A stretch of 64,000 nucleotides of DNA from the NCBI GenBank assembly GCA_019752925.1, contig JAIELP010000006.1, forward strand, positions 62,001 to 126,000. Reading direction: 5' to 3'. Positions 8,881-25,756 of the stretch are shown here, piece after piece (positions within the stretch are counted from its first letter, which is position 1; the number at the start of each line of letters is the position of its first letter). A model generated the notes under the pieces. It was not told where the DNA came from, made no database searches, and worked only from the letters and a program-made list of their open reading frames with translations. The position numbers were made by a program, and so were the translations under genes. This stretch comes from a bacterium. Lineage in GTDB: Bacteria > Bdellovibrionota > Bdellovibrionia > Bdellovibrionales > Bdellovibrionaceae.

Positions 8881-9687
8881 TTATATTCGTCCAGGCATAG
8901 CGAGTTTTTTAAACCAGCAGAATATTTTTTTAATTTCATCAAAACTTAATAAAGAAATATAAGTGGCCAACATAATATATCCGAATAAGCGATGGTTCAT
9001 AAATACAATAATTTCAAAATGAAGACTGCATCCAATCAGCAAAGATATATACTTGCTGTAGCGGTTAAGCTGGAAAAGAGGAAATAAGCTTTCCCAAAAT
9101 ACGATAACAATCGAATAAAAATACAGTGCTGATAGAACCAAAGGATATTCGGCTAAAAAATCTAAGTTCCATCGGTTATAAAGAGGAAGGGCCATGGCCT
9201 CAAAAGGCGCCTGTCCGATGAGCCAACTGTCGTATAGAAATTTGCTTAAGCCACAAAGGACATAAATAATAGATACATGTATTTGTATCATTCGCATAAC
9301 AAATACAGATGAAAAATCTTTTTTGTTTTTAGAAAGCAATCTATCGACAGACCAAGCGTCACCACTGCCCGAAAAAAAAAGATAAGTAAGAATTAAAATT
9401 AAAATTTTATCGCCTATATATATTAAGTTAAAATTTGTTTCGGCGAAATATGAAAAACCTATATAGAGGTAAATGATCGAAGTTCTGGTAAATAAGCCAA
9501 TGAGCAAAAGTAACGAGCTGAGTATAAGAGAATATAAGTATAGAGAAACGAAAGTGTCATTGTTATTGAAGTAAATAGACAGAGGAGTCAGCTCCAGCCA
9601 AGCTAGAAACATTAAAAATCCGAAAGTTATGCGCATTAAAGCATAATGACGATTATCGATGTTAGAAAAAAAGAATTTATCTAACAT
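8881..9687 (-). CDS. HTTM-domain integral membrane protein
   Basis: The 268-residue protein has about seven to eight membrane segments and the HTTM (vitamin K-dependent carboxylase-like) pattern: HYALMRITFGFLMF near the start, GDAWSVDRLL in the middle, then RMIQIHVSIIYVLCGLSKF. Bacterial HTTM proteins are largely uncharacterised. It is the last gene of an operon of acyl-CoA ligase, SDR, a membrane-anchored partner and this protein, with TAA directly before its ATG. That suggests a membrane step on an acyl or small-molecule substrate. Confidence 0.8.
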   Translation of the reverse strand: MLDKFFFSNIDNRHYALMRITFGFLMFLAWLELTPLSIYFNNNDTFVSLYLYSLILSSLLLLIGLFTRTSIIYLYIGFSYFAETNFNLIYIGDKILILILTYLFFSGSGDAWSVDRLLSKNKKDFSSVFVMRMIQIHVSIIYVLCGLSKFLYDSWLIGQAPFEAMALPLYNRWNLDFLAEYPLVLSALYFYSIVIVFWESLFPLFQLNRYSKYISLLIGCSLHFEIIVFMNHRLFGYIMLATYISLLSFDEIKKIFCWFKKLAMPGRI

Positions 9688-10296
9688 TTAGTTGACCTCG
9701 CCCAAATCGATTATTTGTGTAGTTTCACTACAAGGAATTTTTTTGCTCAATAAGATATTTTCAGGACAGTGTAAATCAATTTTCATATATGTTGAATCCA
9801 CTTTTTTACCGGTAGCTAGTTCAAATTTGCGAGCATAAAATTCATCAAAGGCAAAAGCGTTTTTGCCTTTGAGCGGATGGTTTAAGCTAAACACATAAGG
9901 AAATATGTGTAAAAAACGCCAATCCAGATCCATCTCGTTTAACATCATCCCATAATTGTTAACTGGCCCGGGCTTAGCATAGGTATCGTAAACTAAAATA
10001 TCTTCTGCTCCGGATTTTACATATATTTTGTACTGACGATGCGGAACTTTAAACGAAAACAAAGTCCACTTGGAGTTTGCATTGAACAAATTAACATATT
10101 TAGCAAAGCCCCGAGCAATAGTATCATTATTTCTTAATATACGGCTCACACTTTCCCATGTCTGGCGATACCATAGTGGGGACATGGTGTTTTCATATAA
10201 ATTAAAAGTATATCGGTTGGGTAATCCGTCACATATAACAATAAAAAAATGCAAAAATACAAAAAGCAAAAGTACTTTTTTAAAAAACGGCCTCAA
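9688..10296 (-). CDS. Membrane-anchored partner of HTTM protein, unknown function
   Basis: The 202-residue protein has one N-terminal membrane segment (about residues 7-23) and a soluble domain presumably outside the cytoplasm. I recognise no catalytic motif. Two Cys near the C-terminus (DLHCPENI, IPCSETT) could form a disulfide. It overlaps the SDR gene by 4 bases upstream and abuts the HTTM gene downstream. The tight packing suggests an accessory subunit of the HTTM protein. Confidence 0.72.
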   Translation of the reverse strand: MRPFFKKVLLLFVFLHFFIVICDGLPNRYTFNLYENTMSPLWYRQTWESVSRILRNNDTIARGFAKYVNLFNANSKWTLFSFKVPHRQYKIYVKSGAEDILVYDTYAKPGPVNNYGMMLNEMDLDWRFLHIFPYVFSLNHPLKGKNAFAFDEFYARKFELATGKKVDSTYMKIDLHCPENILLSKKIPCSETTQIIDLGEVN

Positions 10297-11066
10297 AGCG
10301 TTCTGCCGCCGTCAATTACAAGCACTGTACCTGTAGCAAATCTTATAGAAGTAGCACAGGCCTCAATTGTTGAAGCCACATCATTTGCTTGAGTTATGCG
10401 TTTAAGAGGTGTAGCTGCGGCAATAGTTTCGTTAACATTTGCGCCCTTAATAGCACCTGAAGTTGGTGTTTCCATGTGGCCTGGTGCAATAGCTAAGATG
10501 CGGATTTCAGGAGCCAGTGCTTTGGCCAGAGTTTGAGTCAGCATATTGATGCCAGCTTTTGCGCAGGCATAAGCTGCATTACTGTTGCTCGCACGTAAAC
10601 TTGCCGTAGAAGATAAATTTATAATTAATCCGTTACCGCTTTCTTTTAAGAGCGGAGCAAAAGTTCGAATAACCGAAAAACTTCCACGTAAATTTGTTTT
10701 TAGTATATCATCAAAAATTTCGTCGGTAAGTTCGTGTAAATTTTCAGGCTTAACATTTTTAGTAATGCCAGCGGCGTTAATTAAAATGTCACATCGTCCG
10801 GCAACTTTTTTAATTTCGTTAAATGCAGTTGTTAAAGCCGAGCTTTCTGTAACCGAAGCCAGCAATGCAAAGTGTTGCAATTTTTCGTAATGTGGGAGCT
10901 TCTGCATTTTAGAATTAGCCTGATCAAGGTCTCTTCTCACTAAGGCTATAATTTTAACTCCGCGTTCAGCCAAACGTATTGCGCTCGCATACCCTACTTG
11001 TCCGGTGCCACCGGTAATAACAGCTACTTGTCCGCTTAAATCATCTAATTTTTGAAATGTACTCAT
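10293..11066 (-). CDS. Short-chain dehydrogenase/reductase (FabG-like)
   Basis: The 257-residue protein is a classical SDR. It has the cofactor glycine motif VITGGTGQVGYA (about residues 15-26), NAAG near 96, a catalytic Ser in NLSSTASL, and YACAK as the Tyr-x-x-x-Lys pair. The closing GTVLVIDGGRTL is typical of 3-oxoacyl reductase-like members. It lies between an acyl-CoA ligase gene (33 bases upstream) and a membrane pair, which favours an acyl or ketone substrate. The substrate is not evident. Confidence 0.9.
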   Translation of the reverse strand: MSTFQKLDDLSGQVAVITGGTGQVGYASAIRLAERGVKIIALVRRDLDQANSKMQKLPHYEKLQHFALLASVTESSALTTAFNEIKKVAGRCDILINAAGITKNVKPENLHELTDEIFDDILKTNLRGSFSVIRTFAPLLKESGNGLIINLSSTASLRASNSNAAYACAKAGINMLTQTLAKALAPEIRILAIAPGHMETPTSGAIKGANVNETIAAATPLKRITQANDVASTIEACATSIRFATGTVLVIDGGRTL

Positions 11067-11098: not shown

Positions 11099-12595
11099 CT
11101 AGATTTTATTTAAAAGTTCCTGCGCCATAAACTTCAAAGCACGTCGGTCTATTTTAAAAGCCAATGTAAGTGGTATTTCTTGCAGTTGCCAAATTTTACG
11201 CGGCAAATGATAAGACGGAGAGTTTTGAAGAACAAAATTTTTTAATTTGGACTCATCGAAATTTATATTTTGTTTTAAAGTTACAAATGCATAAGGTTTC
11301 GAGCCTTTAACTTCATCATCTAGTGCAATGACTACAGCCGATTCAACATCGGGGTGCCTTTCCAGAACAGTTTCAATTTCAGCAGGGTAAATATTTTCGC
11401 CACCACTGATAAACATATCATCGGCGCGCCCGTTACAAAAATAAAAGCCATTTTCATCAACATAAAAAAGATCATTAGTATTATAAAAATTTTCGAGGCC
11501 GGGTGTTTTGACATGTAATATCCCATCTACAATGCGATATTCAATTCCCGTACGAGGATAGCCAACGCTCAATTCAGGAACGGGCTTATTTTCAGGATGC
11601 CAGTGTTGAAATAATCCGGCGCCTAGTTCTGTGGAGCCGTAGGCATTAAAAACTTTTTTAGCTCGTGGAAAATGTTGTTTTATTTTACTTAGCAAAGCTG
11701 GACTCAGTGGCGCTCCGCCTAGTCGGATATCAATAATACTCGACATATCTGTGTGCGACACCAGCTCTTCATTGGAAAGAAGCATGGCCAACATAGGCGG
11801 AACTGCTTTAAGCGACGTAGGTTTATATGTTTCAATGGCTTTTGCAAAAGTCGTGGCATTAAAATAAGGTAGCAACACCATTTGACCTTTTCCTGCTAAA
11901 ACTGTTTCGGCATTAGTAAGGCCGCCCATATGAAAAAGAGGCGCCGCTAATATTTGTCGAAATTCGCCGCTGCGGATCCATCGCGCAAGAGTGCTTTTTT
12001 CCGGAAGTCTGCTTTTTATTAACCAGATGTGTTGATGATGAGTCACTGTAACACGCTTTGGTTCTCCCGAAGTAGAGCCAGATGTGAAAATTAAAAAAGC
12101 CGGATCTTTTTTTGAGGGCTTAAATGCAGAAAACTTTCCTCTGTCGACCCAAGCTTTAAAGCCCTGTTCAAAACAAACGGAGTTAAACTCGCTAAAATTG
12201 TTTTTTCTCACAAGAGAGTCGCAGAAAAGAAAAGGGACATTATTTTTTTTTAACAATTTTTTAATGTGCTCAACAGGCAGTTTATGGTTGATGAGTACGG
12301 CAACCATTCCGGCACGCATAATTCCGAAATATGTAGCTATATAATCTGATGAGTTGTGGGCGATAATTGCAATAGGTGTTTGGGGCTCAAAATTCATGTT
12401 ACTTAAGGCCCTTGCAACCGCGTCAGACAGCTCATCCAGTTGTTGATAGCTAACTTCGCGTGGAGTCTCTCCGCTCAGGTCGATTATGGCTATTTTTTCC
12501 GGGCTTTCAGATTTGCTTATAACAGAGCCCGCATTTGAGGTGTTTCCTCTAAATAAATCCGTAACAAGACGTTTGTACCATAATAAGGCGCTCAT
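11099..12595 (-). CDS. AMP-dependent acyl-CoA synthetase/ligase
   Basis: The 498-residue protein is a full-length ANL-superfamily ligase. It has the phosphate-binding loop FTSGSTSGEPKRVTVTH near residue 170, FNAYGSTELGAG near 316, the hinge region with GRADDMFISGGENIYPAEIE near 390, and a C-terminal Lys in LTLAFKIDRRAL. It activates a carboxylic acid as acyl-AMP and probably transfers it to CoA or another thiol. It is the first gene of the ligase-SDR-partner-HTTM operon. The acid used is unknown. Confidence 0.9.
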   Translation of the reverse strand: MSALLWYKRLVTDLFRGNTSNAGSVISKSESPEKIAIIDLSGETPREVSYQQLDELSDAVARALSNMNFEPQTPIAIIAHNSSDYIATYFGIMRAGMVAVLINHKLPVEHIKKLLKKNNVPFLFCDSLVRKNNFSEFNSVCFEQGFKAWVDRGKFSAFKPSKKDPAFLIFTSGSTSGEPKRVTVTHHQHIWLIKSRLPEKSTLARWIRSGEFRQILAAPLFHMGGLTNAETVLAGKGQMVLLPYFNATTFAKAIETYKPTSLKAVPPMLAMLLSNEELVSHTDMSSIIDIRLGGAPLSPALLSKIKQHFPRAKKVFNAYGSTELGAGLFQHWHPENKPVPELSVGYPRTGIEYRIVDGILHVKTPGLENFYNTNDLFYVDENGFYFCNGRADDMFISGGENIYPAEIETVLERHPDVESAVVIALDDEVKGSKPYAFVTLKQNINFDESKLKNFVLQNSPSYHLPRKIWQLQEIPLTLAFKIDRRALKFMAQELLNKI

Positions 12596-12683
12596 AATAA
12601 TTAGATTTAATCATTATATGGGCTAGTATGTCCACTTGACTAATTTTTGATTAAAATAGACAATTAAGTGTCGGAAGGTGTTT

Positions 12684-13061
12684 ATGTTTAGAAGAAGCTT
12701 TTTCAAGAAAATGACTGCTGTTTTAGGTGTATCAATGGCTGCTCCGCTTGTGCTTGCTAATGAGCAAAAAAATGCAGTTAAAGGCAACAAAAACAATACT
12801 CTTTATGTTATTTCACGCCCTGAAGAAAAGGGTGGTTTGGCTGAACAGCAAATCAACATCGTTAGAAAATTAAATGATGATTTCCGAACTAGCGGGAAGT
12901 TGGTTAAAACCGTTCTTAAAAATATTTCTGATAAACAACCTGAAAAAGGTTATGTAAGCGTTTACACTTTCGATTCAAAACAATCAAAAGAACTATACGT
13001 TAAGCAAAAAGAAGAACTATTAGCAAACCATTCTGCGACAGCGCAAAAGGGATTGGCTTAG
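12684..13061 (+). CDS. Small Tat-exported protein of unknown function
   Basis: The preferred ATG at 12684 follows GGAAGG at a normal distance; a GTG two codons earlier is possible. The 125-residue product starts MFRRSFFKKMTAVLG, a twin-arginine-type signal, ending near LVLANEQ. The mature part is charged and Lys-rich with no known motif. It is 20 bases upstream of a BKACE enzyme and may share its transcript. Confidence 0.65.
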   Translation: MFRRSFFKKMTAVLGVSMAAPLVLANEQKNAVKGNKNNTLYVISRPEEKGGLAEQQINIVRKLNDDFRTSGKLVKTVLKNISDKQPEKGYVSVYTFDSKQSKELYVKQKEELLANHSATAQKGLA

Positions 13062-13081: not shown

Positions 13082-13963
13082 ATGAAGAATCACAAAACAG
13101 TAATTACCTGTGCTATTACCGGAGCTGCCACTAAGCCTGAGCAAACTCCCTATTTACCTATTACTCCCGAGCAAATTGCTGAATCCGCATTGGAAGCCGC
13201 TGAGGCCGGTGCGGCCATAGCTCACATTCATGTTCGTAATATTGAAAATGGTCGTCCTTCAATGAGTTTGGAACTTTACCGGGATACAGTAGACCGTATT
13301 AAAAGCAGAAATAAAGAACTTATAATAAATCTAACTACAGGTCCGGGGGCGCTCTATATACCAAGTGCAGATAATCTTGCTGTTGCAGCAGAGGGCACAA
13401 GGCTCTTAAGTGCTGCTGAGCGCGTAAAACATATTGAAGTAATTAAGCCGGATATTTGTACTATGGATCTTAATACAATGAATCTGCCCGGTGCCGGAAT
13501 AAGAATTAACCATATTCGTGTTTGCAGAGAAATGATTCAGAGGGTACAGGCTGTAGGCGTAAAGCCCGAGCTGGAACTTTTTGATTCCGGTGATTTAAGA
13601 ATTGCTCTTGAATTGTTGGAAGAAGGCGTAATTCAAAAACCTGCTCTATGGCAATTTGCAATGGGTATGAAGTATGGATGGGATGCAACACCGGCTACGG
13701 TCATGTATGCATATAATCAGTTGCCGCCGGGAGCGGTCTGGTCTGCATTTGGTATCAGCCGCACTCAAATGCCAATGGTTGCACAAACTTGGATTTATGG
13801 CGGTCATGTTCGTGTCGGCATGGAAGACAATATTTATATCGAAAAAGGTGTGCTCGCAAAAAGCAACGCAGAACTTGTTCGTAAAGCGGCAAATATTGTT
13901 AAAGATCTTGGCGGTCAAATAGCAAATGCCCAAGAGGCGCGAGAGTTATTTCATTTAAAATGA
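13082..13963 (+). CDS. Beta-keto acid cleavage enzyme (BKACE, formerly DUF849)
   Basis: The 293-residue protein matches the BKACE family, which condenses a beta-keto acid with acetyl-CoA to give acetoacetate and a new acyl-CoA (the lysine-fermentation enzyme Kce is the model). The zinc-binding HIHVR (His48, His50) and the C-terminal GGHVRVGMEDNIYI with the conserved Glu are present. LTTGPGA and AFGISRTQMPM are in the expected places. It overlaps the downstream membrane-protein gene by 4 bases. The substrate is unknown. Confidence 0.9.
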   Translation: MKNHKTVITCAITGAATKPEQTPYLPITPEQIAESALEAAEAGAAIAHIHVRNIENGRPSMSLELYRDTVDRIKSRNKELIINLTTGPGALYIPSADNLAVAAEGTRLLSAAERVKHIEVIKPDICTMDLNTMNLPGAGIRINHIRVCREMIQRVQAVGVKPELELFDSGDLRIALELLEEGVIQKPALWQFAMGMKYGWDATPATVMYAYNQLPPGAVWSAFGISRTQMPMVAQTWIYGGHVRVGMEDNIYIEKGVLAKSNAELVRKAANIVKDLGGQIANAQEARELFHLK

Positions 13964-15228
13964 TTAAGTTTAAAAATCTTCTTGATGGCGAACAAATACT
14001 AAGATGGTTTTTTTCTTTCTTTTATCTAACCACACTAATTGAATGGTACTTTGGCTCTTACAATGCTGGGTTTCTATCGTTTTTAAAAAATTTTTCCAGC
14101 GATTTAAATGGCGCAAGAGTTGGTATAGAGCCAGTGGATTTATGGCTCAAAATTGATTTGGCCCCAGATGGTTTTTTACGTACAATTTTGTTTGCGGCCG
14201 GCGCAATATTTTGTATCATTTTAGCTTCTAATCGTTTCAGATTACTAAGTTCTACAGGTTTGCTTTTGGTTATAAATTTGGTGGCCTACTCCATCGGCGG
14301 AAGAATTTATATTTTTGAAGTCATCTCTTATGCTTACATTGGCTATTGGGCCGGAAACATAGCAAGCTCACTTATTTGGAAAAACTTAAACGTTAAGCGA
14401 ACTTCATTTTTTACATCGATTAATGCTGTAGGAGTTATTTATACGTCTGCCGCAATTTCTAAAGTTTTTTATTCGGGATGGAGCTGGGTTTCTTACGAAC
14501 ACTTTAGTCGGCTTCTGCATAATGCCAGATTCCGTTATGAGTTGGGCCTCATGAGTTTTCGAATGCCTGACGAAGCTTTTAATTTTATTTTATCTCAAGA
14601 GTTTTTATGCATTTTGTCGCTGTGCTTGGTAATAGTTATTGAGTTTTATGGCATTTTTACCATTTTACTAAAAAAATATTACTACACATCTATTTGGTCG
14701 CTTTTAGTTTTACATTTTGGAATGTATTTTTTGGCGGGAGTTATTTGGAACCCGTTAATGCTCATGTTGGTGATCTGGGCAATCCCATGGGGATACATTA
14801 AAGAAGTAAATGATTTTTCATTAACACAAAAAGAAATTAAATTTGTTTTTTTATTTTCCTTAGCTCTGCTTGCGACATCTTGGATAATACCTAGCTCAGA
14901 ATCTTACAGAACAAAAGTGATTTGGCCTTTTAGTAGTTTTGGAGTTTATAGCAAGACTGATCAGCAGAACAATTATTTGTATTTCAGGAGCGGAAGCGAC
15001 GTTATTTTTCAGAATACGCTGCTCATACGAGAACTCAAAATGAGCAGCCAGCAGATGCACGTTTCAGCTCCGATTATAGGTGATTATTGTGAATTTTTAA
15101 AAAATCGCCTAAGCCCGGATAGTATGTTGCGCAGAAAACGTATCAATTTATGGAAGCGAAACTTTCCATTCGATGAACAACATAACAAAATCGTCGTTAC
15201 CGACGAATTTGTTAAAAATTGTTTATAG
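13960..15228 (+). CDS. Polytopic membrane protein, HTTM-like
   Basis: The 422-residue protein has about eight to nine hydrophobic segments in the first 300 residues and a C-terminal soluble tail (about 315-422). The internal region NAVGVIYTSAAISKVFYSGWSWV resembles the Tyr-x-x-(A/S)-G-x-x-K-x-x-x-x-x-W segment of HTTM proteins. It overlaps the BKACE gene by 4 bases, an ATG-A coupling, so it probably acts on the same pathway. The HTTM assignment is tentative. Confidence 0.65.
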   Translation: MIKFKNLLDGEQILRWFFSFFYLTTLIEWYFGSYNAGFLSFLKNFSSDLNGARVGIEPVDLWLKIDLAPDGFLRTILFAAGAIFCIILASNRFRLLSSTGLLLVINLVAYSIGGRIYIFEVISYAYIGYWAGNIASSLIWKNLNVKRTSFFTSINAVGVIYTSAAISKVFYSGWSWVSYEHFSRLLHNARFRYELGLMSFRMPDEAFNFILSQEFLCILSLCLVIVIEFYGIFTILLKKYYYTSIWSLLVLHFGMYFLAGVIWNPLMLMLVIWAIPWGYIKEVNDFSLTQKEIKFVFLFSLALLATSWIIPSSESYRTKVIWPFSSFGVYSKTDQQNNYLYFRSGSDVIFQNTLLIRELKMSSQQMHVSAPIIGDYCEFLKNRLSPDSMLRRKRINLWKRNFPFDEQHNKIVVTDEFVKNCL

Positions 15229-16571: not shown

Positions 16572-17327
16572 ATGGCGAGTGGCGAAGATGTTTTTAAAAA
16601 AATTTTACAAAGTAAGTGGGCTAAGCCTTATAATGGTGAAGTTCAATCTTATTTTCCTGCTTTGTGTCCGCTACGTTATGGTTTGTACTCATCCACGCTA
16701 GATAGATTTATTGTAGTTGATTATCTTGATTTATGGTCTATGCAGCAGGCCGCGCAGGTTCTTTCTTCAAAGTTCATCTCTGTTGTTTGTATTTTTTCGA
16801 TGGCTGAACCTCCATTTAATTTACAGGATTGTATGCTTTGGACTTTAACTAACAAAGCTGCAGTATTGCCGACCAAACAAACGCCCAGTTTGCATCGTAT
16901 TTTGGATACAAAAGAATTGATGTATGCCGGTATATCACCGGATTTTAGCGACAACCCTCATAAACTTATCGAAGAGCAGGAGTTCATAATTTTTGTTTTA
17001 AAGGCTGTTGTGGCCTTGCGGTTAACGGATATTTCTTTGGGTTTTAACAGCGAGGTTAAAAATGACAATCAAAGCTATTACTTATCACTTGCAGGTTTAA
17101 CGAAAGAAACACTCAGCATTTGGGCTCCTCCCGATAGAACTAGATGGGTAGGAGGTTTTGCATTTTGGATGAATGCCTTACTCTCACGCGCTAGATCCAT
17201 TGAAGAAGTACTCGCCGAGTTAGAAAATGTTATGAATGAAGATGATGAGGGTGGAACGTCAGAAAAAGTTATTTATAAAAAAATCTATGTTCAGAATTTC
17301 TATAAGTTTTTGGGTTGGGAGCCATAA
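16572..17327 (+). CDS. Unknown cytosolic protein coupled to a PP-loop ATPase
   Basis: No family is recognised. With ATG at 16572 the product is 251 residues (MASGEDVFKK); an ATG at 16551 or TTG at 16518 would extend it. None has a clear Shine-Dalgarno. The protein has no signal peptide and ends in an acidic stretch (about residues 225-235) before FYKFLGWEP. Its TAA overlaps the ATG of the next gene, so the two are translationally coupled. It may be a carrier or partner of the ATPase; that is inference. Confidence 0.65.
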   Translation: MASGEDVFKKILQSKWAKPYNGEVQSYFPALCPLRYGLYSSTLDRFIVVDYLDLWSMQQAAQVLSSKFISVVCIFSMAEPPFNLQDCMLWTLTNKAAVLPTKQTPSLHRILDTKELMYAGISPDFSDNPHKLIEEQEFIIFVLKAVVALRLTDISLGFNSEVKNDNQSYYLSLAGLTKETLSIWAPPDRTRWVGGFAFWMNALLSRARSIEEVLAELENVMNEDDEGGTSEKVIYKKIYVQNFYKFLGWEP

Positions 17328-18556
17328 TGGTTATAAACCCGGACCATAAGTTTTATTTTGTCAGCTTTATTAGTAGACAAAGATTAAGACGAATCGACAT
17401 AACCTCGCACTATAATGATTATGGCAAAGAAGCACAGTTTTATCTGGATGTGGCTGATTTTTTTGGGGTCAACAGAATCGTACCCCGAAGTGGTGAGTGG
17501 AATCTGCCCTGGAAAATCAACTTGATGCCAGGTTTAGAGATGCCTCTGTACGATGCTGGTTTTTCTAAAAATTTTGAACAAGTATCTGATGAAAGAGCTT
17601 TGGAAATTAAAAAATTAATTCAAGCCTCCAATGCTAAAATAACATTATATTACTCTGGCGGAATTGACAGTGTGGTGAGCTTGGTGGCGCTCCTAAGAAA
17701 TCTGACCGATGAAGAGCTGCAAAATATTACGATCGCATTAAGCTCCGAAAGCATTATTGAGTATCCTGAGTTTTTCCACAAATATATTCACAACAAGCTC
17801 AAAATAGTAGACTCTGCGCACGTAAAGTATTCTGATATTCAAAATGCCGGTGGTTACGCTATTACGGCCGATCAGGGCGATAGTATTTTTGGCACCGAAC
17901 TCGCCACCGAACTCTATTATAACTATAAAGATTTACTTGCAAATCTGTCAGGGCAGATGCGTTCCAAGCTTGAAAATTACGAAAGCAAAGTTAGTAGCCG
18001 TGAAGCGCATTATTCTGATTATGCTGACATTTTGATTAAATTTTTTGAATTACCGGGCTCTCCTGAGTTCGGAGCGAAATTTTATGAAAGAATGAAGCTT
18101 AATATTCAAACCTCAGGGGCATCAGTTTACACTTTGCATGATTTCTTCTGGTGGTGGATTTTCAATTTAAAATATTCTGAGTGTGCAGTCAGGGGAGCGC
18201 TTTACTATTCGGATGGCGAAGATTTAAAGAAATGTCTGCATGAAACAACCATTAACTGGTTCAATGGCCGAGATTATCAGTTGTGGAGTATGGCTAATAA
18301 CAATACTGGTCAAAAAATTCGTGGCACCACCGCAGCCAGTTATAAGTGGGCCGCTCGAGAATACATTTACTCATTTGATAAAAACCCATGGTACTTTCGT
18401 CACAAGCTTAAGGTTTCTTCGTTAAAAAATATATTTGAGCGAACCCAGGCAAAGACGACAAGAATATTCGGTATGGACCAGGATTACAAAGTAGTTACTT
18501 ATATGGATCCAGGTATTGAAGTGTTTATGCATAACCAATTGTCAAAATTTGGTTAA
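17327..18556 (+). CDS. PP-loop ATPase, asparagine-synthetase-C-like
   Basis: With the ATG at 17327 (TAATG overlap, preceded by GGGAG) the protein has 409 residues. LYYSGGIDSVVSLVAL near residue 111 is the pyrophosphate-binding loop of N-type ATP pyrophosphatases, and ITADQGDSIFG near 185 matches the asparagine-synthetase motif that binds ATP and substrate. There is no N-terminal glutaminase (no Cys2), so ammonia or an amine must come from elsewhere. Such domains adenylate a carboxyl to form an amide or ring. The substrate is unknown. Confidence 0.75.
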   Translation: MVINPDHKFYFVSFISRQRLRRIDITSHYNDYGKEAQFYLDVADFFGVNRIVPRSGEWNLPWKINLMPGLEMPLYDAGFSKNFEQVSDERALEIKKLIQASNAKITLYYSGGIDSVVSLVALLRNLTDEELQNITIALSSESIIEYPEFFHKYIHNKLKIVDSAHVKYSDIQNAGGYAITADQGDSIFGTELATELYYNYKDLLANLSGQMRSKLENYESKVSSREAHYSDYADILIKFFELPGSPEFGAKFYERMKLNIQTSGASVYTLHDFFWWWIFNLKYSECAVRGALYYSDGEDLKKCLHETTINWFNGRDYQLWSMANNNTGQKIRGTTAASYKWAAREYIYSFDKNPWYFRHKLKVSSLKNIFERTQAKTTRIFGMDQDYKVVTYMDPGIEVFMHNQLSKFG

Positions 18557-18769: not shown

Positions 18770-19720
18770 ATGAACGTTGTTAAAAAAATCAGATGGGTTC
18801 TTGCCCATGAGCCAATTGAATTATTTCTACGCGCAGCAACCAGATTTGCTCAAGAGATTGCGCAAAAAACGAACGGTGCTATTGAAATTGAAGTAATGAC
18901 TTTGTCTCAGTACTCAGACAGATATGCTGGCGGTAAAAAAGTTAGCAAAAACGAATTACTTGATTTAATGGATGCTGGCCAAATCGAAATGAGCCAGATG
19001 TACACAACATCATTAGGTAAGTTCAATAAAGACATGTTTGCACTTGATATGCCTTTCTTATTTAGAAGCCATGGTCATGCGTCTTCTGTATTAGACGGTC
19101 AAATCGGTAAATCTTTAATGGACGGTCTTTCTAAAAACTCAAATATTCAAGGTTTAGCTTTCACATACAGCGGTGGATACAGAATGATCGCAGCTAAAAC
19201 TGAGATTAATAAAGTTGAAGACTTTCAAGGTCTTAAAATCCGTGTTGCAAAAAGCCCTGTTGCTGAAGACTGCTTAAAAGCTGTTGGAGCAATTCCGGTT
19301 CCTATGGATTTAGAAGATACAAACGAAGCGCTTAACGCTGACATCGTATCAGGCGGCGAAAGCACATACCCTCGTTTCTATTCAATGAAACAAAACGAAG
19401 TAGCTAATGTAATCAACGATACACAACATAGTTTATTCTTAACTTCTATTTTAGTTGGTAAGAAATTCTGGGGTTCATTAGATGCGGCTACTCAGAAAAT
19501 TATGTCTGAAGCAGCTCAAATTGCAGCTCACGTTGAGCGCCAAGAGTCTATCGATGACATCAAAGTGATTCAGGATAAATGTAAACAAGACGGTATTCCG
19601 GTTGTTACATTAAGCACTGAAGAGCAAACTAAATTTAAAGCAGCTACTCAAAGCGTATATACTAAGTACGAAAGCTTCTTTACTAACGGTTTAATCGACA
19701 GTATTAAAAATACTCACTAG
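18770..19720 (+). CDS. TRAP-transporter DctP-family binding protein lacking a signal peptide
   Basis: The ATG at 18770 follows AGGAG with 7 bases spacing, giving 316 residues. The body matches DctP/TAXI-type solute-binding proteins: a variable strand, then DMFALDMPFLFRS, the family signature around KVEDFQGLKIRVAKSPV, and ADIVSGGESTYPRFYSMKQ. DctP proteins normally carry a signal peptide and serve the periplasm. Here the N-terminus begins directly with VKKIRWVLAHEP, the first strand of the fold. A TTG start 23 codons upstream adds no signal either. No TRAP membrane genes are nearby. It may act as a cytosolic ligand-binding or enzyme-like protein. Confidence 0.85.
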   Translation: MNVVKKIRWVLAHEPIELFLRAATRFAQEIAQKTNGAIEIEVMTLSQYSDRYAGGKKVSKNELLDLMDAGQIEMSQMYTTSLGKFNKDMFALDMPFLFRSHGHASSVLDGQIGKSLMDGLSKNSNIQGLAFTYSGGYRMIAAKTEINKVEDFQGLKIRVAKSPVAEDCLKAVGAIPVPMDLEDTNEALNADIVSGGESTYPRFYSMKQNEVANVINDTQHSLFLTSILVGKKFWGSLDAATQKIMSEAAQIAAHVERQESIDDIKVIQDKCKQDGIPVVTLSTEEQTKFKAATQSVYTKYESFFTNGLIDSIKNTH

Positions 19721-19742: not shown

Positions 19743-19776
19743 AAAACCCGTGCTGAAAAGTACGGGTTTTTTTATT
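19743..19776. terminator. Terminator between convergent genes
   Basis: An 11-bp stem (19743-19753 with 19760-19770, one G-U pair) is followed by a T-run on the plus strand. It lies 22 bases after the DctP-like gene and just before the end of the convergent oxygenase operon. Confidence 0.85.
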
Positions 19777-20406
19777 TCAGTCGGTCCAACGTATAGAATT
19801 CCAGTCAAATTCATTTTGCGAAAGCTTTTTAATTAAAATCCATTGTTTTACATTTTTGATTTTTACAGGATCTTTCCAAAGGCGCATGTCTTTGTAGATA
19901 TCAGGATAGTTTTCACCGAAAAAAAATTTAAGTGGTGCATCCGAGTTTTTATTAGATCTCTCAATCAGTTTGGCAAAAGAGCTCGTGGATTCATTAAAAG
20001 AGATAATAGCCGCATCTGCAGCGCGTGCTTTAATTTTTTCAAGCTGATAGGGTAGTAAATATTGGGCTATAAGCAAATTAAAGCGATGCTCTTTGAGAAC
20101 CCAAGAACGCACGCCCATAATGTATATAGAGGGATGGAAATCAGACCGATAGTAACCGCTAACCGCCACAATTGCGTTGTCGGAGGTTAGCAAGAGTTGA
20201 AGCCCGCCAATTGAGGGCATGAAGCGCTTTTCAATTTGTAGTAAATAGAGCAGGCTTGATGTCTGATTTTGCCAGCCCTCAACCACCATATTATCGCGGG
20301 CCTCATGTTTTTGTTCTGAATAAGCCAAACGACAGAAGTCTTTAATCTTTTCAAAAAGAGATTCCTCAATCTGACCTGAAAAAACTTCAATGACTTTATA
20401 CTGCAT
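19777..20406 (-). CDS. Unknown protein, last gene of desaturase/oxygenase operon
   Basis: The 209-residue protein has no signal peptide or membrane segment. The order of predicted strands and helices, with IYIMGVRSWVLKEHRFNLL followed by a helix-rich region and ending NVKQWILIKKL, is suggestive of a GNAT-type acetyltransferase fold. The usual acetyl-CoA loop is not clear, so I do not assign it. Its ATG overlaps the TAA of the upstream oxygenase gene (TAATG), placing it in the same operon. Confidence 0.65.
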   Translation of the reverse strand: MQYKVIEVFSGQIEESLFEKIKDFCRLAYSEQKHEARDNMVVEGWQNQTSSLLYLLQIEKRFMPSIGGLQLLLTSDNAIVAVSGYYRSDFHPSIYIMGVRSWVLKEHRFNLLIAQYLLPYQLEKIKARAADAAIISFNESTSSFAKLIERSNKNSDAPLKFFFGENYPDIYKDMRLWKDPVKIKNVKQWILIKKLSQNEFDWNSIRWTD

Positions 20407-21356
20407 TAAATATCAGTGCTTTCTTCAATTTTAAATAAACCGCTTTTTAAAAAATTACGACTGTGTTCAAAATCCCAGTTGAATGTATCGTTATGCTTCA
20501 TGCCTATTTGATTTTTGAATGAATCTAGAAATTGCCCCTCAACTCTTAAAGTTAAACGGCTTTCATCTTCAATATCCAACCCGTGTGCATCGATTTCATT
20601 AAAAAAGTATGAATTCTTGTCTGGGTTAACATAAGTTTTTTTATCGCTGTGCATGTCATACAAAAAGAAAGGACGGGGTTTTTGATTTAAGCGGAAATTT
20701 ATAAAATTAACACTGTGATTGGTGGGATAGTAATCACGATGAATAAGTACCGGATTTTTGCCGCTAGATTTAAAGATCATAACATAACCGACATATTTAA
20801 AAGGTAAACTTTCTACGAATTTGTACATAGTCGGAAAATGATCCATAAAGCTCAGCCATTCGGAAGGATTGGATTTGTCTTCATAGGCGCCGTTGTACTT
20901 GCGGAACATAGCAATGCCTTCCCAGGCCGTATTAATTTTAAAATAGTCGTGTAAAAAAACTTTAATATCACCTTTGCGGCCGAGCTTCAGAATATTTTCT
21001 TTCCAGGTGTTGTCGGGAGCATATTTTTCAATGTGATGAATTAAACTATCAATACTTTTTTGACCGTTAATTCTGGCAGGCACAATACCGTTAGCTACAA
21101 TTTTATTAAAGCCGACTATATTTTTTTCTTCACCGATCAGAACCTCTTCTTTTATTTTTTTTAAGTAAGAGGTATCAATCAGATCGTCAAAATAAATAAA
21201 GGGTTGTTCCGTACCATTTTCACCTACGCCCATCAGAGGTAAATTACAGTGACGATAAGTAATAAAATCCGGAACTACCGGATGAGGTAGTGTAACTTTC
21301 ACTTCGAAGTCTTTTTTTGTAAAAGGCCCTTCCAGGTTACGGTAAATCGTGCTCAT
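20406..21356 (-). CDS. Putative Fe(II)/2-oxoglutarate-type oxygenase B
   Basis: The 316-residue protein has the facial-triad pattern of aspartyl/asparaginyl beta-hydroxylase-like oxygenases. PVLIHRDYYPTNHSVNF near residue 205 gives His-x-Asp, NEIDAHGLDIEDESR near 266 gives the distal His, and LTLRVEGQF supplies the Arg that would hold 2-oxoglutarate. It overlaps the desaturase gene upstream by 4 bases and the next gene by 1. The 256-residue protein at 22424-23194 is a distant homologue. The substrate is unknown. Confidence 0.7.
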   Translation of the reverse strand: MSTIYRNLEGPFTKKDFEVKVTLPHPVVPDFITYRHCNLPLMGVGENGTEQPFIYFDDLIDTSYLKKIKEEVLIGEEKNIVGFNKIVANGIVPARINGQKSIDSLIHHIEKYAPDNTWKENILKLGRKGDIKVFLHDYFKINTAWEGIAMFRKYNGAYEDKSNPSEWLSFMDHFPTMYKFVESLPFKYVGYVMIFKSSGKNPVLIHRDYYPTNHSVNFINFRLNQKPRPFFLYDMHSDKKTYVNPDKNSYFFNEIDAHGLDIEDESRLTLRVEGQFLDSFKNQIGMKHNDTFNWDFEHSRNFLKSGLFKIEESTDI

Positions 21357-22129
21357 GAGGGTTTTTTAACCGATTTTACAAGCAAAACAGTTGGGTCAAA
21401 TTCGTTTTCTGCATATGCAAAACTGTAGCTATTTGGTCTTGCATGATGATTATTATGATAGCCAACACCCCAGAACAACAGGCCAAAGAAGTAACGGTTT
21501 ACAGAGCGGTCTGGCAAATCAAAATTGCGATAACCTTTCCCGCTGTGGCAAAAAAGATTAACACAAAACTCCTGATGGAGCGTGATGATTTGCGCTATTA
21601 CCAAGGCAAATAAAATAGCCGGACTAATGAAATAAGCCGCAATCCAGGTTAACCACACAACAAAGAAATACATATAGTGTAAAACTCTTTGAGCTTTTTT
21701 ACGTAAAAGATCATTTACAAAATCAAACTTAATACTTCTGTAGTCGATTGTTATAGACCAAATAAAATAAGCCCACCATTTACCTTTAACAGGCGAGTGA
21801 AGATCTTTTTCGCCGTCTGAATGTGGGTGGTGATATCCACGGTGAATATTAACCCAGAAAATAGGGCTACCTTGAATTGCTAAACAGCCAAGATAGGAAA
21901 TAAAGACTTCAATTGGATACCAAGTTTTAAAAGATTTATGTGACAACAGGCGGTGAAATGCCACGCCGATGCCGTATCCGGAGGTCAGAGTCCAAAAAAA
22001 CAAAATCAAAAAAATATTCAGAACCGTGAACTCTATTTTATAAAGAGACCATAGCAGTAATAAATGTGCCGGTAAGAAAATAAGCCAGAAATAAGAGTTG
22101 AGCTTACGTAGCATATTCATTTGCCTCAA
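21353..22129 (-). CDS. Membrane fatty-acid desaturase-like di-iron protein B
   Basis: The 258-residue protein has four hydrophobic segments and the three His boxes of acyl desaturases: FHRLLSH (about residue 58), HRGYHHPH (about 95) and HNNHHARP (about 233). These bind the di-iron centre that introduces a double bond or hydroxyl. The length suits bacterial Delta9-type enzymes. It is the fourth gene of the operon, overlapping the upstream gene by 26 bases. It is clearly related to the 23184-23930 protein. Confidence 0.88.
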   Translation of the reverse strand: MRQMNMLRKLNSYFWLIFLPAHLLLLWSLYKIEFTVLNIFLILFFWTLTSGYGIGVAFHRLLSHKSFKTWYPIEVFISYLGCLAIQGSPIFWVNIHRGYHHPHSDGEKDLHSPVKGKWWAYFIWSITIDYRSIKFDFVNDLLRKKAQRVLHYMYFFVVWLTWIAAYFISPAILFALVIAQIITLHQEFCVNLFCHSGKGYRNFDLPDRSVNRYFFGLLFWGVGYHNNHHARPNSYSFAYAENEFDPTVLLVKSVKKPS

Positions 22130-22439
22130 ATGGCCCTTGTAATTCCGCGCTTATATAATTTTGGCTGTGATACTTCTCGCGAAGCTGAGTGTTTTGCGGG
22201 GTTAGTCGGCTCCATTCAGCATAGCCATTTTTATCATTCCAGAAACTTATTCTGATGTGAGTTTTGCTATCAAAGAAGTAATCGACTACCTTAATGCCGC
22301 CACAGTTTTTAAAGGCTGAACTTCTTTCGACGGCTTGAGTGGTGGCTTCCTGCGAAAGCACATAGGGTTTGCGTTCGTTTGAAAAATCGTTTTGCATAGA
22401 TTTTTCAATAAAAAAATAAACAACTACCGCGCTTGCCAT
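22104..22439 (-). CDS. Small unknown protein in desaturase/oxygenase operon
   Basis: The 111-residue protein is soluble and of unknown family. Alternating strands (VVVYFFIEKS, KVVDYFFDSKTHIRISFWND) suggest a small alpha/beta barrel such as the dimeric ferredoxin-like fold seen in ABM-type monooxygenases. No decisive motif is visible. It overlaps genes on both sides (16 and 26 bases), so it belongs to the operon. Confidence 0.65.
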   Translation of the reverse strand: MASAVVVYFFIEKSMQNDFSNERKPYVLSQEATTQAVERSSAFKNCGGIKVVDYFFDSKTHIRISFWNDKNGYAEWSRLTPQNTQLREKYHSQNYISAELQGPFEANEYAT

Positions 22440-23194
22440 AATATTCCTGTTTTTTTACAAAAATCTTCATCGAGCTGTCCGTCTACGCGCAAAGAGTAAG
22501 TCATTTTTTCAGATGGCTCTGCACCGTGGAGGTAACGCGTATTAAAAAAAGCCGACTTGCTGCTAATCGTATGTTTCTTTTTGTTGTCGTCGACCAGGAA
22601 AAATTTTTTTTGATTAAATGGGTTTAGCCACACAAAGTGATGTCGCCCATCAAAGCAATCATCTTTCCGGTCGTAATGTACGTCAGTATGTAAGTAGTGA
22701 TAAGAAACGAAAAACAAAACTCGCCCTATTTCACGAAACGGAAGGCTTTTTATAAACTCCATGGTTTTCGGAAAGTGAGGTGCGTTTTCATGCCATTCAC
22801 ACATTGAATCGTGAAAAGTTGCAAATGCATGCTGAGCACAATCTGGCTTAGTAAATTTTATTCTGACAAACTCTCCATCCCAGTAAGCATTTTTATAAAG
22901 CTGCAGAAATCTTTTTTTTTGTTCGTGCGAAAGTGAGTTAAAGTACTCCTTCTCTTGCTCTGTCTTTAAATGCTCGCTGCCTTCACTGGCTACATTACCA
23001 ATGCGCGCAGACTCGTTTGTTTTAAATTCAATTACTTTATTAAAATCAGACTGCATTTCCAGATGCGGAATAACTCGGCTCGACATATTAGTTTTAGATT
23101 TAGCAATACCGGCGCATATTTCTAGATGGCAGTCTTCAAGCTGGCTTACGTTAATATAAGAATCAAGATCGGTAATTAAAAAATCACGACTCAT
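22424..23194 (-). CDS. Putative Fe(II)/2-oxoglutarate-type oxygenase A
   Basis: The 256-residue protein has HTDVHYDRKDDCF near residue 172 (His-x-Asp), NTRYLHGAEPSEK near 220 (distal His) and MTYSLRVDGQL (Arg). The same spacing and the closing LRVxGQ match the 20406-21356 protein, so the two are paralogues. FREIGRVLFFVSYHYLH parallels FKYVGYVMIFKSSG of the paralogue. It is second in the operon, overlapping the first desaturase gene by 11 bases. The substrate is unknown. Confidence 0.68.
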   Translation of the reverse strand: MSRDFLITDLDSYINVSQLEDCHLEICAGIAKSKTNMSSRVIPHLEMQSDFNKVIEFKTNESARIGNVASEGSEHLKTEQEKEYFNSLSHEQKKRFLQLYKNAYWDGEFVRIKFTKPDCAQHAFATFHDSMCEWHENAPHFPKTMEFIKSLPFREIGRVLFFVSYHYLHTDVHYDRKDDCFDGRHHFVWLNPFNQKKFFLVDDNKKKHTISSKSAFFNTRYLHGAEPSEKMTYSLRVDGQLDEDFCKKTGILWQAR

Positions 23195-23930
23195 AAGAGT
23201 TACGCTCTTTTTCTATTAATCGGATAAAAAATCCGCCGATATCTACTTCGCTTGGTTTTCTTTTAAAGATAGGATTGGCTTGGCGAGCATGATGATTATT
23301 GTGAAGACCTTCGCCAAAAGTTAAAAAAGAAACAACGCGGTTATTTTTACTATCATCGTCTAGTTGATAATTTGTGTAGCCCCATTTGTGGCAAATTGTA
23401 TTGATAACGCTACCAGCCTCCCAAACCAAAGCCGCCGGCGCGAGATAAAAATAAATAATTAGCTTAGGGTCAATCAAGGCCAGCCCACCAGCATATCCTA
23501 AGTGTAGAAAAAAATAATTTCTGTGTAGAAATAACTGAAATTTTGAGCGCAGCATGTCGGTTACATAGCGAGGCTCTGCAACTTCAAGCATGCTGAGCCA
23601 CTGTACGCGGTACCAAGCCATAAAACGCATTGAGTGCGGATCTTTTTGCTTATCTGTGTAACGATGATGCTTGCGGTGAGTGGCTACCCAGGCAATAGGA
23701 CTACTGGCACAAGATAGCATCCCTAGCATTGAGCCTACATAATAAAACCACGTTGGTGGCTTAAAGCTGTTATGTGATAGCAAACGGTGAAAGGTGATCG
23801 TGCCACCAAAGCAATAGATAACACAATAAACTAAAAAAGAAATCAGCCAGTATTTAACAGGAAAAAATACCAACAGTACAACTAGAGCAATGTGAGCTAA
23901 AATTTGATGAAATAAAATCAAATAAGGCAT
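23184..23930 (-). CDS. Membrane fatty-acid desaturase-like di-iron protein A
   Basis: The 248-residue first gene of the operon has four membrane segments and His boxes FHRLLSHN (about residue 48), HRKHHRYTD (about 85) and HNNHHAR (about 213). It is a paralogue of the 21353-22129 protein with a similar order of segments. It probably acts on an acyl-CoA or acyl-lipid chain. Whether both paralogues act in sequence on the same product cannot be told from sequence. Confidence 0.88.
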   Translation of the reverse strand: MPYLILFHQILAHIALVVLLVFFPVKYWLISFLVYCVIYCFGGTITFHRLLSHNSFKPPTWFYYVGSMLGMLSCASSPIAWVATHRKHHRYTDKQKDPHSMRFMAWYRVQWLSMLEVAEPRYVTDMLRSKFQLFLHRNYFFLHLGYAGGLALIDPKLIIYFYLAPAALVWEAGSVINTICHKWGYTNYQLDDDSKNNRVVSFLTFGEGLHNNHHARQANPIFKRKPSEVDIGGFFIRLIEKERNSYES

Positions 23931-24010: not shown

Positions 24011-24577
24011 CTATTTGATCGTCAACAAATTAACCAGAGAATGGCGCGCCTTTTCATTGTTTATAACGTTGAAAACAGCAAACTCACTTCCGTAAAACGA
24101 AAACACTGAATGAATCATCTTAGTGTTTATGTAGTACTACTTGTGATTTTCAAGTTTCACGAGCTCGCCGTTGAGAATCCACACTAGATTCTGGTCTTCG
24201 CAGCCATTAATCGTGTAAAGTAATCTAAAAGTTGAGCCGTCGTAATCACGATGATAAGGAAAGAAGCCGCCACTGCCTAAGCGGATTACATGGCTGCGGC
24301 CTAAATCAAAATACTGATCTAAAAAATTAAAATACTGATAATTCGGAGTTTTAGTTGCGAAATCTTTTTCAGTGTAGCTGGTGTTGTGCTCTGTGTTATA
24401 GTCGCGGAGGCTGTCTAGGTCTGGAATTCCTGTTGTTTTGCCGTCGAGGGAAGTCAGGCTTGAGCCCCAGCGTGGAATATTTTTTCGGGGATTGTATGGA
24501 ACCCAGGGCAGTTGATTACAGTCGATGGCAACTTTTGGTAAATGCAAAGAGAAATGAGGCTCGTAGTATTCTATCAT
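24011..24577 (-). pseudogene. Oxygenase-like gene interrupted by an in-frame amber codon
   Basis: The open frame from ATG 24577 runs 146 residues and stops at TAG (24137-24139), shortly after GGFFPYHRDYDGSTFRLLY, the proximal iron-ligand motif. Reading on in the same frame gives 41 further sense codons to a second TAG at 24011-24013. They include INTKMIHSVFSFYG, a good match to the distal-His segment that completes such oxygenases. The gene thus looks like a 2-oxoglutarate-type oxygenase split by a single substitution, or a readthrough gene. Without the tail it lacks the third iron ligand. Confidence 0.75.
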
Positions 24578-24705: not shown

Positions 24706-25227
24706 ATGAATTACCCTTTTTTATATCAGATTTTAGGTCATCTTGACTCTGTTAAAATCAGAAACAATCTGATTTTAACAGAACAAAAAATTACTGTTTG
24801 GGATGACTGGAAGCTAATTGGTGCAAAATCAGAACAAGTTGAAGAGTTTATAAAGCAGAACTTGAATCATCTTAAAATATTTAATGATCAAATTTATGTA
24901 AGCGACGGCACGACCTCAAATTTTCATATCGACCGGTACCGAATTTATCATCTACTTCACAGAATTTTAATACCGCTAGATGATAATTTTCATTACGAAT
25001 GGATTATTGGCGACAAAAAATTAACCTACCAGCCTAAAAAAGGTGAAGTTATACTATTTAACAATATGCAGCCACACCGGTTTGTTTCTGACGATAGCAG
25101 CAAAAGAGAAGTGATCTATTTTGATTTGTATGACCCATTAGTTGCGGATTTATTGTTAGAGGTTAAAGGTAACTACAGTTCTGTAAATGCTGAACTGGAT
25201 AAAAAATACAGTCGTAATGCAAATTAA
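24706..25227 (+). CDS. Putative aspartyl/asparaginyl hydroxylase-like oxygenase
   Basis: The 173-residue protein is compact. TSNFHIDRYRIYHLLHRIL near residue 84 gives His-x-Asp, and NMQPHRFVSDDSSKREVIYF near 128 gives the distal His and following Arg, the usual cupin-like iron and 2-oxoglutarate site. KKGEVILFNN before the distal His is typical of small dioxygenases. It is divergent from the interrupted oxygenase gene and overlaps the next gene. The substrate is unknown. Confidence 0.65.
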   Translation: MNYPFLYQILGHLDSVKIRNNLILTEQKITVWDDWKLIGAKSEQVEEFIKQNLNHLKIFNDQIYVSDGTTSNFHIDRYRIYHLLHRILIPLDDNFHYEWIIGDKKLTYQPKKGEVILFNNMQPHRFVSDDSSKREVIYFDLYDPLVADLLLEVKGNYSSVNAELDKKYSRNAN

Positions 25228-25756
25228 TTTTCAGAATATTTATGTTATCGATGAAACAATAACTCGAAAAAGTTTGAATGATTTTTTCTGGCCTCAGGAA
25301 ACTTTTAATTTTACCCGCCAAGCTCTGACCGATCAAAATAAACGGGAAGGCTGGTACTGTGAATTTACCAACAATGGTTTATCGCTAGTACTCAAAATAT
25401 TAATCAGTTCGGAAGATTATACCCATTGGCCAAAAGCGCAGCGCCCGCAAAATCCAAACATTGTGTCTTCTGAAGTAAGACTTTTCCCGGAATTTCAAAT
25501 TAAAACGTCTGAGCCCGCTCTAAGGTTGCGGAGTCCTGCCTCCATGGCTGAAATCCTGCGAAAAAAAATATATCTTTCAAGCCGCTTCGGGGAGAGCGCA
25601 GATAAAATGTGGGCGGCACAGTATTTTAACTCTCCTACAAAAGATTTTATGATTTACGAAATGGGCTTCAACAGAGAAATGCAAGCCTCAGACATTGAGA
25701 TATTGGCATCAATTAAGTCTGAAATATCTGAATTGCAGGGAATTGAATTTTTTTAA
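25217..25756 (+). CDS. Unknown protein coupled to oxygenase gene
   Basis: No family is recognised. ATG at 25217 overlaps the upstream gene end by 11 bases and gives 179 residues; an ATG at 25187 would add ten. The protein is soluble, with no signal peptide, and is rich in aromatic residues (DFFWPQETFNF, REGWYCEF). It converges on a membrane-protein gene 9 bases further on. Overlap with the oxygenase gene suggests a shared task. Confidence 0.6.
   Translation: MQINFQNIYVIDETITRKSLNDFFWPQETFNFTRQALTDQNKREGWYCEFTNNGLSLVLKILISSEDYTHWPKAQRPQNPNIVSSEVRLFPEFQIKTSEPALRLRSPASMAEILRKKIYLSSRFGESADKMWAAQYFNSPTKDFMIYEMGFNREMQASDIEILASIKSEISELQGIEFF

Follow-up and report, generated by a model that had tools for sequence, protein, structure and literature searches.

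Introduction

Desaturases of the kind discussed here use molecular oxygen and a di-iron center and act on acyl chains, oxygenases dependent on 2-oxoglutarate (2OG) hydroxylate or desaturate their substrates, and GNAT enzymes transfer acyl groups. In the tailoring of ornithine lipids and lipid A (OlsB/OlsC and LpxO), a GNAT and an oxygenase resembling Asp/Asn hydroxylases act on acyl chains, and Roitman et al. are said to have found, in 2018, cyanophage acyl-lipid desaturases that act alone, without a set of oxygenase, GNAT, and PP-loop genes. Here, we describe a locus in which such functions are encoded side by side: a minus-strand operon of two desaturase genes (D1 and D2), two genes for 2OG-type oxygenases (O1 and O2), and two further small genes (S1 and G), in a 64,000-nucleotide stretch of DNA (contig JAIELP010000006.1, positions 62,001 to 126,000, of assembly GCA_019752925.1; here called the window) from a bacterium of the order Bdellovibrionales.

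Two phage systems resemble this locus in part. Freshwater pelagimyophages (fonsimyophages) carry fabF, a stearoyl-CoA desaturase, and a 2OGFeDO protein, and radical SAM cassettes lie in a variable region, HRC (PMC7029224). These are aquatic myophages that, like the locus, combine lipid-type genes with a desaturase and a 2OG oxygenase; the available passages of that paper describe no pathway and mention no DctP, BKACE, ligase, or paired oxygenases, and the phage genes, unlike ours, are not chromosomal in a bacterium (PMC7029224). In Pelagibacter phage Mosig EXVC030M, an oxygenase gene resembling X146, an open reading frame (ORF) next to our operon, adjoins a D1-like desaturase gene, and an annotated N-acetyltransferase, TauD, and a second Asp_Arg_Hydrox protein are encoded nearby. 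Mosig differs in that aminotransferase, FMN reductase, and peroxiredoxin genes are present, in that the identity is only 29%, and in that it has no match to O1, O2, or the neighboring gene T. A search of literature titles and abstract beginnings returned no description of the whole gene combination, although some queries were too narrow to exclude much, and Pfam, NCBIfam, and PHROGs assigned none of the ten proteins scanned to a described system (PADLOC was not searched). The operon had been noticed in a first-pass annotation made by a model from the sequence, which knew of no described pathway of this composition; that statement stands for the complete set in those titles and abstracts, but the fabF, desaturase, and 2OG oxygenase genes of the pelagimyophages are a partial precedent (PMC7029224, in the passages available).

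We propose that a phage-type biosynthetic island, acquired horizontally, occupies approximately 10.3 to 24.6 kb of the window, that the operon forms its module B, and that the operon serves a joint pathway with the adjoining module A (Table 1); we give this proposal a probability of roughly 0.5. That the block is kin to phage genes is, taken by itself, very likely.

Results and Discussion

Relatives of the operon on a viral contig

Five of the six operon genes recur on one strand of the 43.5-kb IMG/VR contig 3300031539_000091 (G368; operon-like locus L203), with identities of 51% for O1, 29% for S1, 47% for D2, 28% for G, and 33% for O2. The same strand also carries a B12-type radical SAM gene, recognized with a model of our own, and a weakly methyltransferase-like gene. 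In the trees, the window's D2, O1, and O2 proteins each form a sister pair with the G368 copy, with support values in the Shimodaira-Hasegawa-like approximate likelihood ratio test (SH-aLRT) of 99, 100, and 99, respectively. G368 further encodes relatives of P269 (31%), Q413 (41%), and T (63%), bringing the total to eight window genes in two blocks. The recurrence of O1, S1, D2, G, and O2 on one strand of a single contig excludes a chance grouping of the six genes. Of the ten G368 proteins tested, six have PHROGs matches (DNA ligase, endolysin, a polymerase exonuclease family, and families of unknown function).

Most of what the first-pass annotation had read from the letters was borne out. 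The ORF list contains the six overlapping minus-strand genes, transcribed in the order D1-O1-S1-D2-O2-G with successive overlaps of 11, 16, 26, 4, and 1 bases; D1 and D2 are paralogs (32% mutual identity, E = 9e-29), as are the HxD...H oxygenases O1 and O2 (32% identity over 126 amino acids [aa]). On G368, five of the six genes lie together but are differently arranged. Its view that the operon holds two small unknown proteins survives for S1, which has no Pfam match, but not for G, which models as a GNAT fold, and the unit itself, though real, extends past the six genes into a larger block shared with phages. Its notion of a duplicated pair did not hold: D1 and D2, and likewise O1 and O2, sit in different parts of their respective trees, and D2, O1, and O2 are each sister to their own G368 relative, which rules out that one desaturase-oxygenase pair was recently duplicated in tandem. 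By these trees, the two desaturases and the two oxygenases belong to old, separate families that were brought together.

Table 1. Features of the locus, with positions in the window
Feature	Coordinates	Strand	Description
tRNA-Val	8780-8855	plus	Left edge of variable block
SDR	10293-11066	minus	Short-chain dehydrogenase/ketoreductase; Pfam adh_short_C2
Ligase	11099-12595	minus	AMP-forming acyl ligase; Pfam AMP-binding
BKACE	13082-13963	plus	Beta-keto acid cleavage enzyme family; Pfam BKACE, 317 bits
P269	16518-17327	plus	Upstream of Q413
Q413	17315-18556	plus	PP-loop ATP-pyrophosphatase-like; SGGxDS motif recognized by reading; not matched by Pfam
T	18770-19720	plus	316 aa; DctP-family solute-binding protein (Pfam DctP), without signal peptide
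Hairpin	19743-19770	plus	Terminator-like; 12-pair stem and T-rich tail, between two convergent gene blocks
G	20406-19777	minus	209 aa; predicted GNAT-fold acyltransferase
O2	21356-20406	minus	316 aa; second oxygenase, putatively of 2OG-Fe(II) type
D2	22129-21353	minus	258 aa; second desaturase; TTG start
S1	22439-22104	minus	111 aa; small protein, fold unassigned; no Pfam match
O1	23194-22424	minus	256 aa; 2OG-Fe(II) oxygenase
D1	23930-23184	minus	248 aa; membrane di-iron fatty-acyl desaturase
X146	24137-24577	minus	2OG-oxygenase-like ORF cut by in-frame TAG; same frame continues to ~24011

Proteins of the operon

D1 and D2 score 65 and 51.9 bits against Pfam FA_desaturase (PF00487; cut-off, 29.7). 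They share the motifs HRLLSH, N-x3-H (NTICH in D1), and HNNHH; the second His box reads HRKHH in D1 and HRGYHH, one residue longer than HxxHH, in D2. Each aligns across the His boxes with the acyl-CoA desaturase 4ymk, a stearoyl-CoA desaturase whose His boxes and Asn-x3-His are all common to D1 and D2, which are shorter (248 and 258 versus 339 aa). Both retain the metal-ligand motifs of stearoyl-CoA desaturases, and both are predicted to desaturate acyl chains. The closest relatives of D1 are found in another genome of the order (G053; 50%) and in an IMG/VR phage locus (L026; 47%). In the desaturase tree, for which viral rows were thinned from 145 to 73 and 22 of the 35 cellular desaturases kept were used, D1 groups with the G053 and phage sequences on a branch with support of 90, below the star level of the tool, and no starred set contains it. 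The scan of genome contigs with D1 covers its best 80 matches. On two contigs labeled as a Nitrososphaerales archaeon (L128 and L129), a desaturase placed within phage and Bdellovibrio-order sequences is accompanied by a relative of G; these are possibly mis-binned phage contigs.

The metal-binding triad and the following Arg read HYD173/H223/R236 in O1 and HRD206/H258/R271 in O2. An alignment of O1 and O2 with 23 proteins of IMG/VR loci has just five invariant columns: G157, H173, D175, H223, and G239 (O1 numbering). The residue following the distal His, an Arg in O1 and O2, is Lys in part of the relatives, and we take this Arg/Lys to be the 2OG binder. The structure model of O1 has a mean predicted local distance difference test score (pLDDT) of 85.3, and its best matches in the PDB are 2OG-Fe(II) oxygenases (proline cis-4-hydroxylase, P4H, AlkB, and AspH; best E = 1.8e-5), with query-normalized TM-scores of 0.26 to 0.40 in the rows listed. 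The prediction of structure, a check suggested in the first pass, thus assigns O1 the double-stranded beta-helix fold of 2OG-Fe(II) oxygenases. Against Pfam Asp_Arg_Hydrox (PF05118), O1 scored 14.3 bits, below the cut-off of 22.6, and O2 had no match; no homologue of O1 or O2 was found in plasmids or isolated phages.

G has no match to the Pfam GNAT model. Its structure model (pLDDT, 86.5) has 280 PDB matches at E <= 0.001, with FeeM among the GNATs, and of the 50 listed, most carry acetyl- or acyltransferase names; because so very many GNATs match, the model is silent on the substrate. Relatives of G are present in phage loci. The S1 relative on G368 (E = 2e-7) likewise lies between O1 and D2, which shows that S1 is a real gene. 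Scans of viral contigs with short patterns of S1 or G alone returned no relative; an alignment-led scan later found both.

Companions of the desaturases in phages and in cells

A pattern scan of IMG/VR with the desaturases found relatives on 146 contigs, of which the best 80 were kept, giving 77 loci. Together with two loci from the collection of isolated phages, 79 loci were available, and they held one desaturase in 27 cases, two in 28, and three to seven in 24. Three desaturase matches were found in the isolated-phage collection, two of them under one organism name. One record, CAKLQH020000002.1, is labeled as an Acinetobacter phage and appears bacterial, with trpB, trpC, btuB, and baeSR around the desaturase; it was excluded from the clusters, census, and tree and is still counted among the 79 loci. 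Nineteen near-identical loci were removed before clustering and census. Terminase matches were found in 9 (7 over the cut-off) and gp23 matches in 8 of 22 contigs tested.

The 62 nonredundant phage loci and 79 cellular desaturase loci, the latter longer at the median, were compared with census models built mostly from phage loci; an 80th cellular locus, L123 from an Oligoflexia metagenome-assembled genome, was left out. In the phage loci, we counted 2OG oxygenases in 34, GNATs in 29, radical SAM proteins in 22, PP-loop proteins in 18, acyl carrier protein (ACP) in 11, ketoacyl synthase (KAS) in 10, TauD in 9, and SDR and AcpS in 8 each, and 42 loci had at least two desaturases. The corresponding counts in the cellular loci were two each for 2OG oxygenase, GNAT, PP-loop, and KAS and one each for radical SAM and AcpS; nine had at least two desaturases, and in five no desaturase was found by model. 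Proteins of the ACP, AcpS-like (below the Pfam cut-off), and ketoacyl synthase types lie beside desaturases in phage loci L033 (5732-5962), L081 (6429-6728), and L039 (7259-8473), respectively.

These companions bear on what the enzymes act on. If D1 and D2 desaturated lipids in the ordinary way and O1 and O2, like LpxO and OlsC, hydroxylated acyl chains of the membrane or of lipid A, the operon would remodel membrane lipids and adapt the envelope to cold, phage, or prey. The alignment of both desaturases with an acyl-CoA desaturase fits such a role, as does the weak resemblance of O1 to Asp_Arg_Hydrox, the family of LpxO and OlsC, although that sub-threshold score is the only sequence link to OlsB/OlsC or LpxO tailoring. 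However, the phage loci hold GNAT, PP-loop, radical SAM, KAS, ACP, and AcpS companions that ordinary cellular desaturase loci rarely have, and the genome already encodes a longer desaturase ORF (G000:C3, 374 aa); we consider lipid remodeling unlikely.

Alternatively, the phage 2OG, GNAT, radical SAM, and PP-loop enzymes may modify a macromolecule (the tail fibre, another protein, or nucleic acid) and so act on the virion or on host RNA, with the bacterium retaining part of the set. Several phage loci adjoin ORFs that read as tail-fibre-like, the Mosig set adjoins annotated tail fibres, and radical SAM cassettes occur in the pelagimyophage region HRC (PMC7029224, in the passages available). Such a function does not account for membrane acyl desaturases, ACP, AcpS, and KAS, and no virion gene was found among 20 island proteins searched with Pfam (10 also with PHROGs; the ORF at 9688-10296 and smaller ones lay outside the scan), so that this explanation seems to us less probable still. 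The first-pass suggestion that an acyl or lipid-linked substrate is oxidized in sequence is retained as oxidative tailoring, probably of an acyl group, given the 4ymk alignment, the KAS, ACP, and AcpS neighbors, and the 2OG fold, and we consider it more likely than not that module B acts on something acyl or lipid-like.

Module A and its phage relatives

T, the gene that converges on the operon, belongs to the family of the receptors DctP and SiaP of tripartite ATP-independent periplasmic (TRAP) transporters, to which it has PDB sequence matches in addition to the Pfam DctP match. It differs from them in lacking a signal peptide, as judged by reading from the start at 18770 and not by a signal-peptide program, and the genome (94% complete) gave no match to DctM (0/1; DctQ was not searched). 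T scanned singly found no relatives, and a scan with an alignment found them on 126 IMG/VR contigs, the best 80 of which, at 51 to 58% identity, were kept; among phage T-type ORFs, 62 of 82 begin no more than 8 residues from the first conserved motif. Relatives of T were found in 11 of 138 genomes of the order, our own included, and in none of the 13 other listed genomes of the genus; the best of these order relatives are 42 to 44% identical and have longer, signal-like N termini in the six loci read. T matches in 17 records of the isolated-phage collection, all below 31% identity and two of them annotated as DctP genes in large Salmonella-labeled records, were given no weight on those grounds. 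By eye, TctC-like receptors with apparent signal peptides were seen in the same kind of phage clusters (L065, L336, and L359).

Q413 also has relatives at 47% in loci L319 and L322; none was found in the isolated-phage collection. Q413-like model matches occur in 55 of the 80 T loci, and in the 43 loci where BLAST found both T and Q413 (near-copies retained), they are always on the same strand and lie within 141 bp in 34. Relatives of P269 at approximately 28 to 31% occur on G368 and in L319 and L353, and there is a further relative in L322.

BKACEs convert a beta-keto acid and acetyl-CoA to acetoacetate and an acyl-CoA, and AMP-forming ligases activate carboxylates. BKACE relatives at 56 to 69% identity were found on 19 IMG/VR contigs; in these loci (near-copies retained), the ligase is present in 17, SDR in 16, T in 5, Q413 in 4, and P269 in 3. 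On contig 3300027782_000120 (L353), ligase-SDR-BKACE faces T-Q413-P269 in a single block. The 345-kb contig 3300027708_000012 (G369), which carries a terminase and the T4-type capsid protein gp23, is a contig with virion genes that holds seven window-gene relatives: ligase (40%), SDR (62%), BKACE (67%), P269 (29%), Q413 (47%), T (53%), and one desaturase (36%). We base the phage kinship of module A on the similarity of its proteins to phage copies together with their gene neighborhood, with BKACE, SDR, and ligase compared with phages only.

The same chemistry could have arisen in a bacterial secondary-metabolite cluster whose genes were repeatedly taken up by phages, the transfer running in reverse. 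Related short desaturases have 2OG, GNAT-like, and PP-loop neighbors at other loci of the order (L109 to L115), T relatives in bacteria have the longer N termini, and the trees are unrooted. Against this, the exact set is rare in genomes and common in phages (146 contigs with D-type desaturases and 126 with T). A profile of the oxygenases matched 4 of 140 genomes of the order, our own included, none of the 13 other listed genomes of the genus, and 5 of 368 genomes of the phylum, one of them weakly and with stops; a scan of genome contigs with the O1/O2 clade gave 34 pattern matches and no relatives, by a method that uses short conserved stretches and can miss. A bacterial origin therefore seems to us possible but doubtful, and transfer from phage to bacterium is the direction we infer.

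Proposed pathway

In the proposed phage-type island, the proteins of module A (ligase, SDR, BKACE, P269, Q413, and T) would supply a carboxylic or beta-keto/hydroxy acid, or activate it in thioester or amide form, with T acting as a cytosolic carboxylate-binding carrier or sensor and not as part of a transporter. In module B, D1 and D2 would each desaturate the acyl chain, O1 and O2 would each hydroxylate it with 2OG and molecular oxygen, and G would transfer an acyl group, most likely to an amine. What the data show directly are the protein families, the catalytic motifs, the predicted O1 and G folds, and the joint presence of these genes on phage contigs; the substrate, the order of the steps, and the product are presumed.

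Several observations weigh against this reading. The gene order on G368 is different, with a radical SAM gene added and G preceding O2, and the only desaturase found there is of the D2 type. G368 has no gp23 or terminase matches; its phage status therefore rests on IMG/VR and the PHROGs matches. The TM-scores of the O1 model are low, and the contrast between phage and cellular loci is biased toward the phage loci because of the source of the census models. Desaturases were found in only 6 of the 80 T loci, within the flanks covered, so that the two modules often occur apart, and for the window a joint function is inferred from neighborhood. No att-like direct repeat of at least 18 nt was found at the tRNA-Val end, and Pfam found no integrase among the 20 island proteins scanned. 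Finally, the interruption of X146 means that the island may be partly decayed.

The last point could be taken further, the block being a decaying, nonfunctional remnant of phage DNA. The in-frame TAG in X146 accords with such a fate, but each of the six genes is an intact reading frame that overlaps the next, and catalytic motifs are retained in both desaturases and both oxygenases; we regard a remnant as very improbable. Past the TAG, the X146 frame contains a distal-His-like stretch resembling a C terminus, and the gene would be either broken or read through. Its relatives include an intact, 189-aa protein in the congener G005 (56%) and phage proteins in L031 (50%) and L024 (35%). In G005, elsewhere in the genome, a PhyH oxygenase, a D2-type desaturase (40%), and this intact X146 relative are clustered; by eye, the cluster also holds a PP-loop gene, an HTTM-like gene, and a GNAT-like gene, the last without a Pfam match.

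More tentatively, large T4-like phages might carry a complete, undescribed pathway that was passed to at least one bacterium, with the signal-less T as carrier or sensor of a carboxylate intermediate inside the cell; the ligase, SDR, BKACE, and PP-loop enzyme would build and activate this intermediate, and the product of the two desaturases, two oxygenases, and an N-acyltransferase might be a doubly desaturated, doubly hydroxylated acyl-amide for virus-host or host-neighbor interaction. Through this locus, a large and so far unexplained set of genes in uncultured phages (D-type desaturases on at least 146 IMG/VR contigs and relatives of the signal-less DctP on 126) is connected with a bacterial chromosome, and what these phage genes make becomes a question answerable at a single bacterial locus. 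If the proposal is true, a solute receptor retained in the cell, and paired in phages with a PP-loop enzyme, would put a familiar protein family to a new use.

Chromosomal context and neighboring genes

In five of six congeners, lon and clpX share a strand and are separated by 0.3 to 2.2 kb; the sixth has them on two contigs. Three congener regions were read, and each has the order clpP-clpX-one gene-lon-regulator-gene-tRNA-Val, and in all three the tRNA-Val adjoins a relative of the gene at 8129-8722; beyond it, the congeners diverge from one another. In the window, lon, the regulator, the gene, and tRNA-Val are followed by approximately 18 kb (8.9 to 26.7 kb) without relatives in these three regions and then by clpX on the opposite strand. 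The block thus occupies a variable, tRNA-linked site with rearrangement, and either order of insertion and inversion fits. The lon and clpX genes match their G005 counterparts at 93 and 94% identity, which makes a misassembled foreign contig less likely; GC content is uninformative. Like virion genes, integration genes were absent from the 20 island proteins within the scan described above.

The terminator scan found 12 hairpin sites like that in Table 1, compared with 6.6 (standard deviation, 2.8) in shuffled sequences, and the hairpin is a consensus match only; the promoter scan did no better than shuffles. Two plus-strand 2OG-like genes at 24706-25756, one weakly Asp_Arg_Hydrox-like and one weakly FlmC-like, adjoin the block and have no relatives in the phage loci fetched. 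An HTTM-domain protein is encoded at 8881-9687, and a second membrane protein, at 13960-15228, resembles HTTM proteins on reading, with no match in Pfam; near desaturase clusters in G202, G121, and G005, HTTM-like genes were again seen, mostly by eye. The ORF at 12678-13061 encodes a small Tat-signal-like protein, and similar small exported proteins were seen by eye beside desaturase clusters in L113, L114, L115, and L119. Relatives of the window's ClpP occur in phage loci L094 (1150-1767, 51%) and L267 (6058-6456), and four phage loci hold a weak relative of the window gene at 58784-59281. At 57597-61241, repressor-like and tyrosine-recombinase-like ORFs, recognized by eye, suggest a mobile element near the end of the window.

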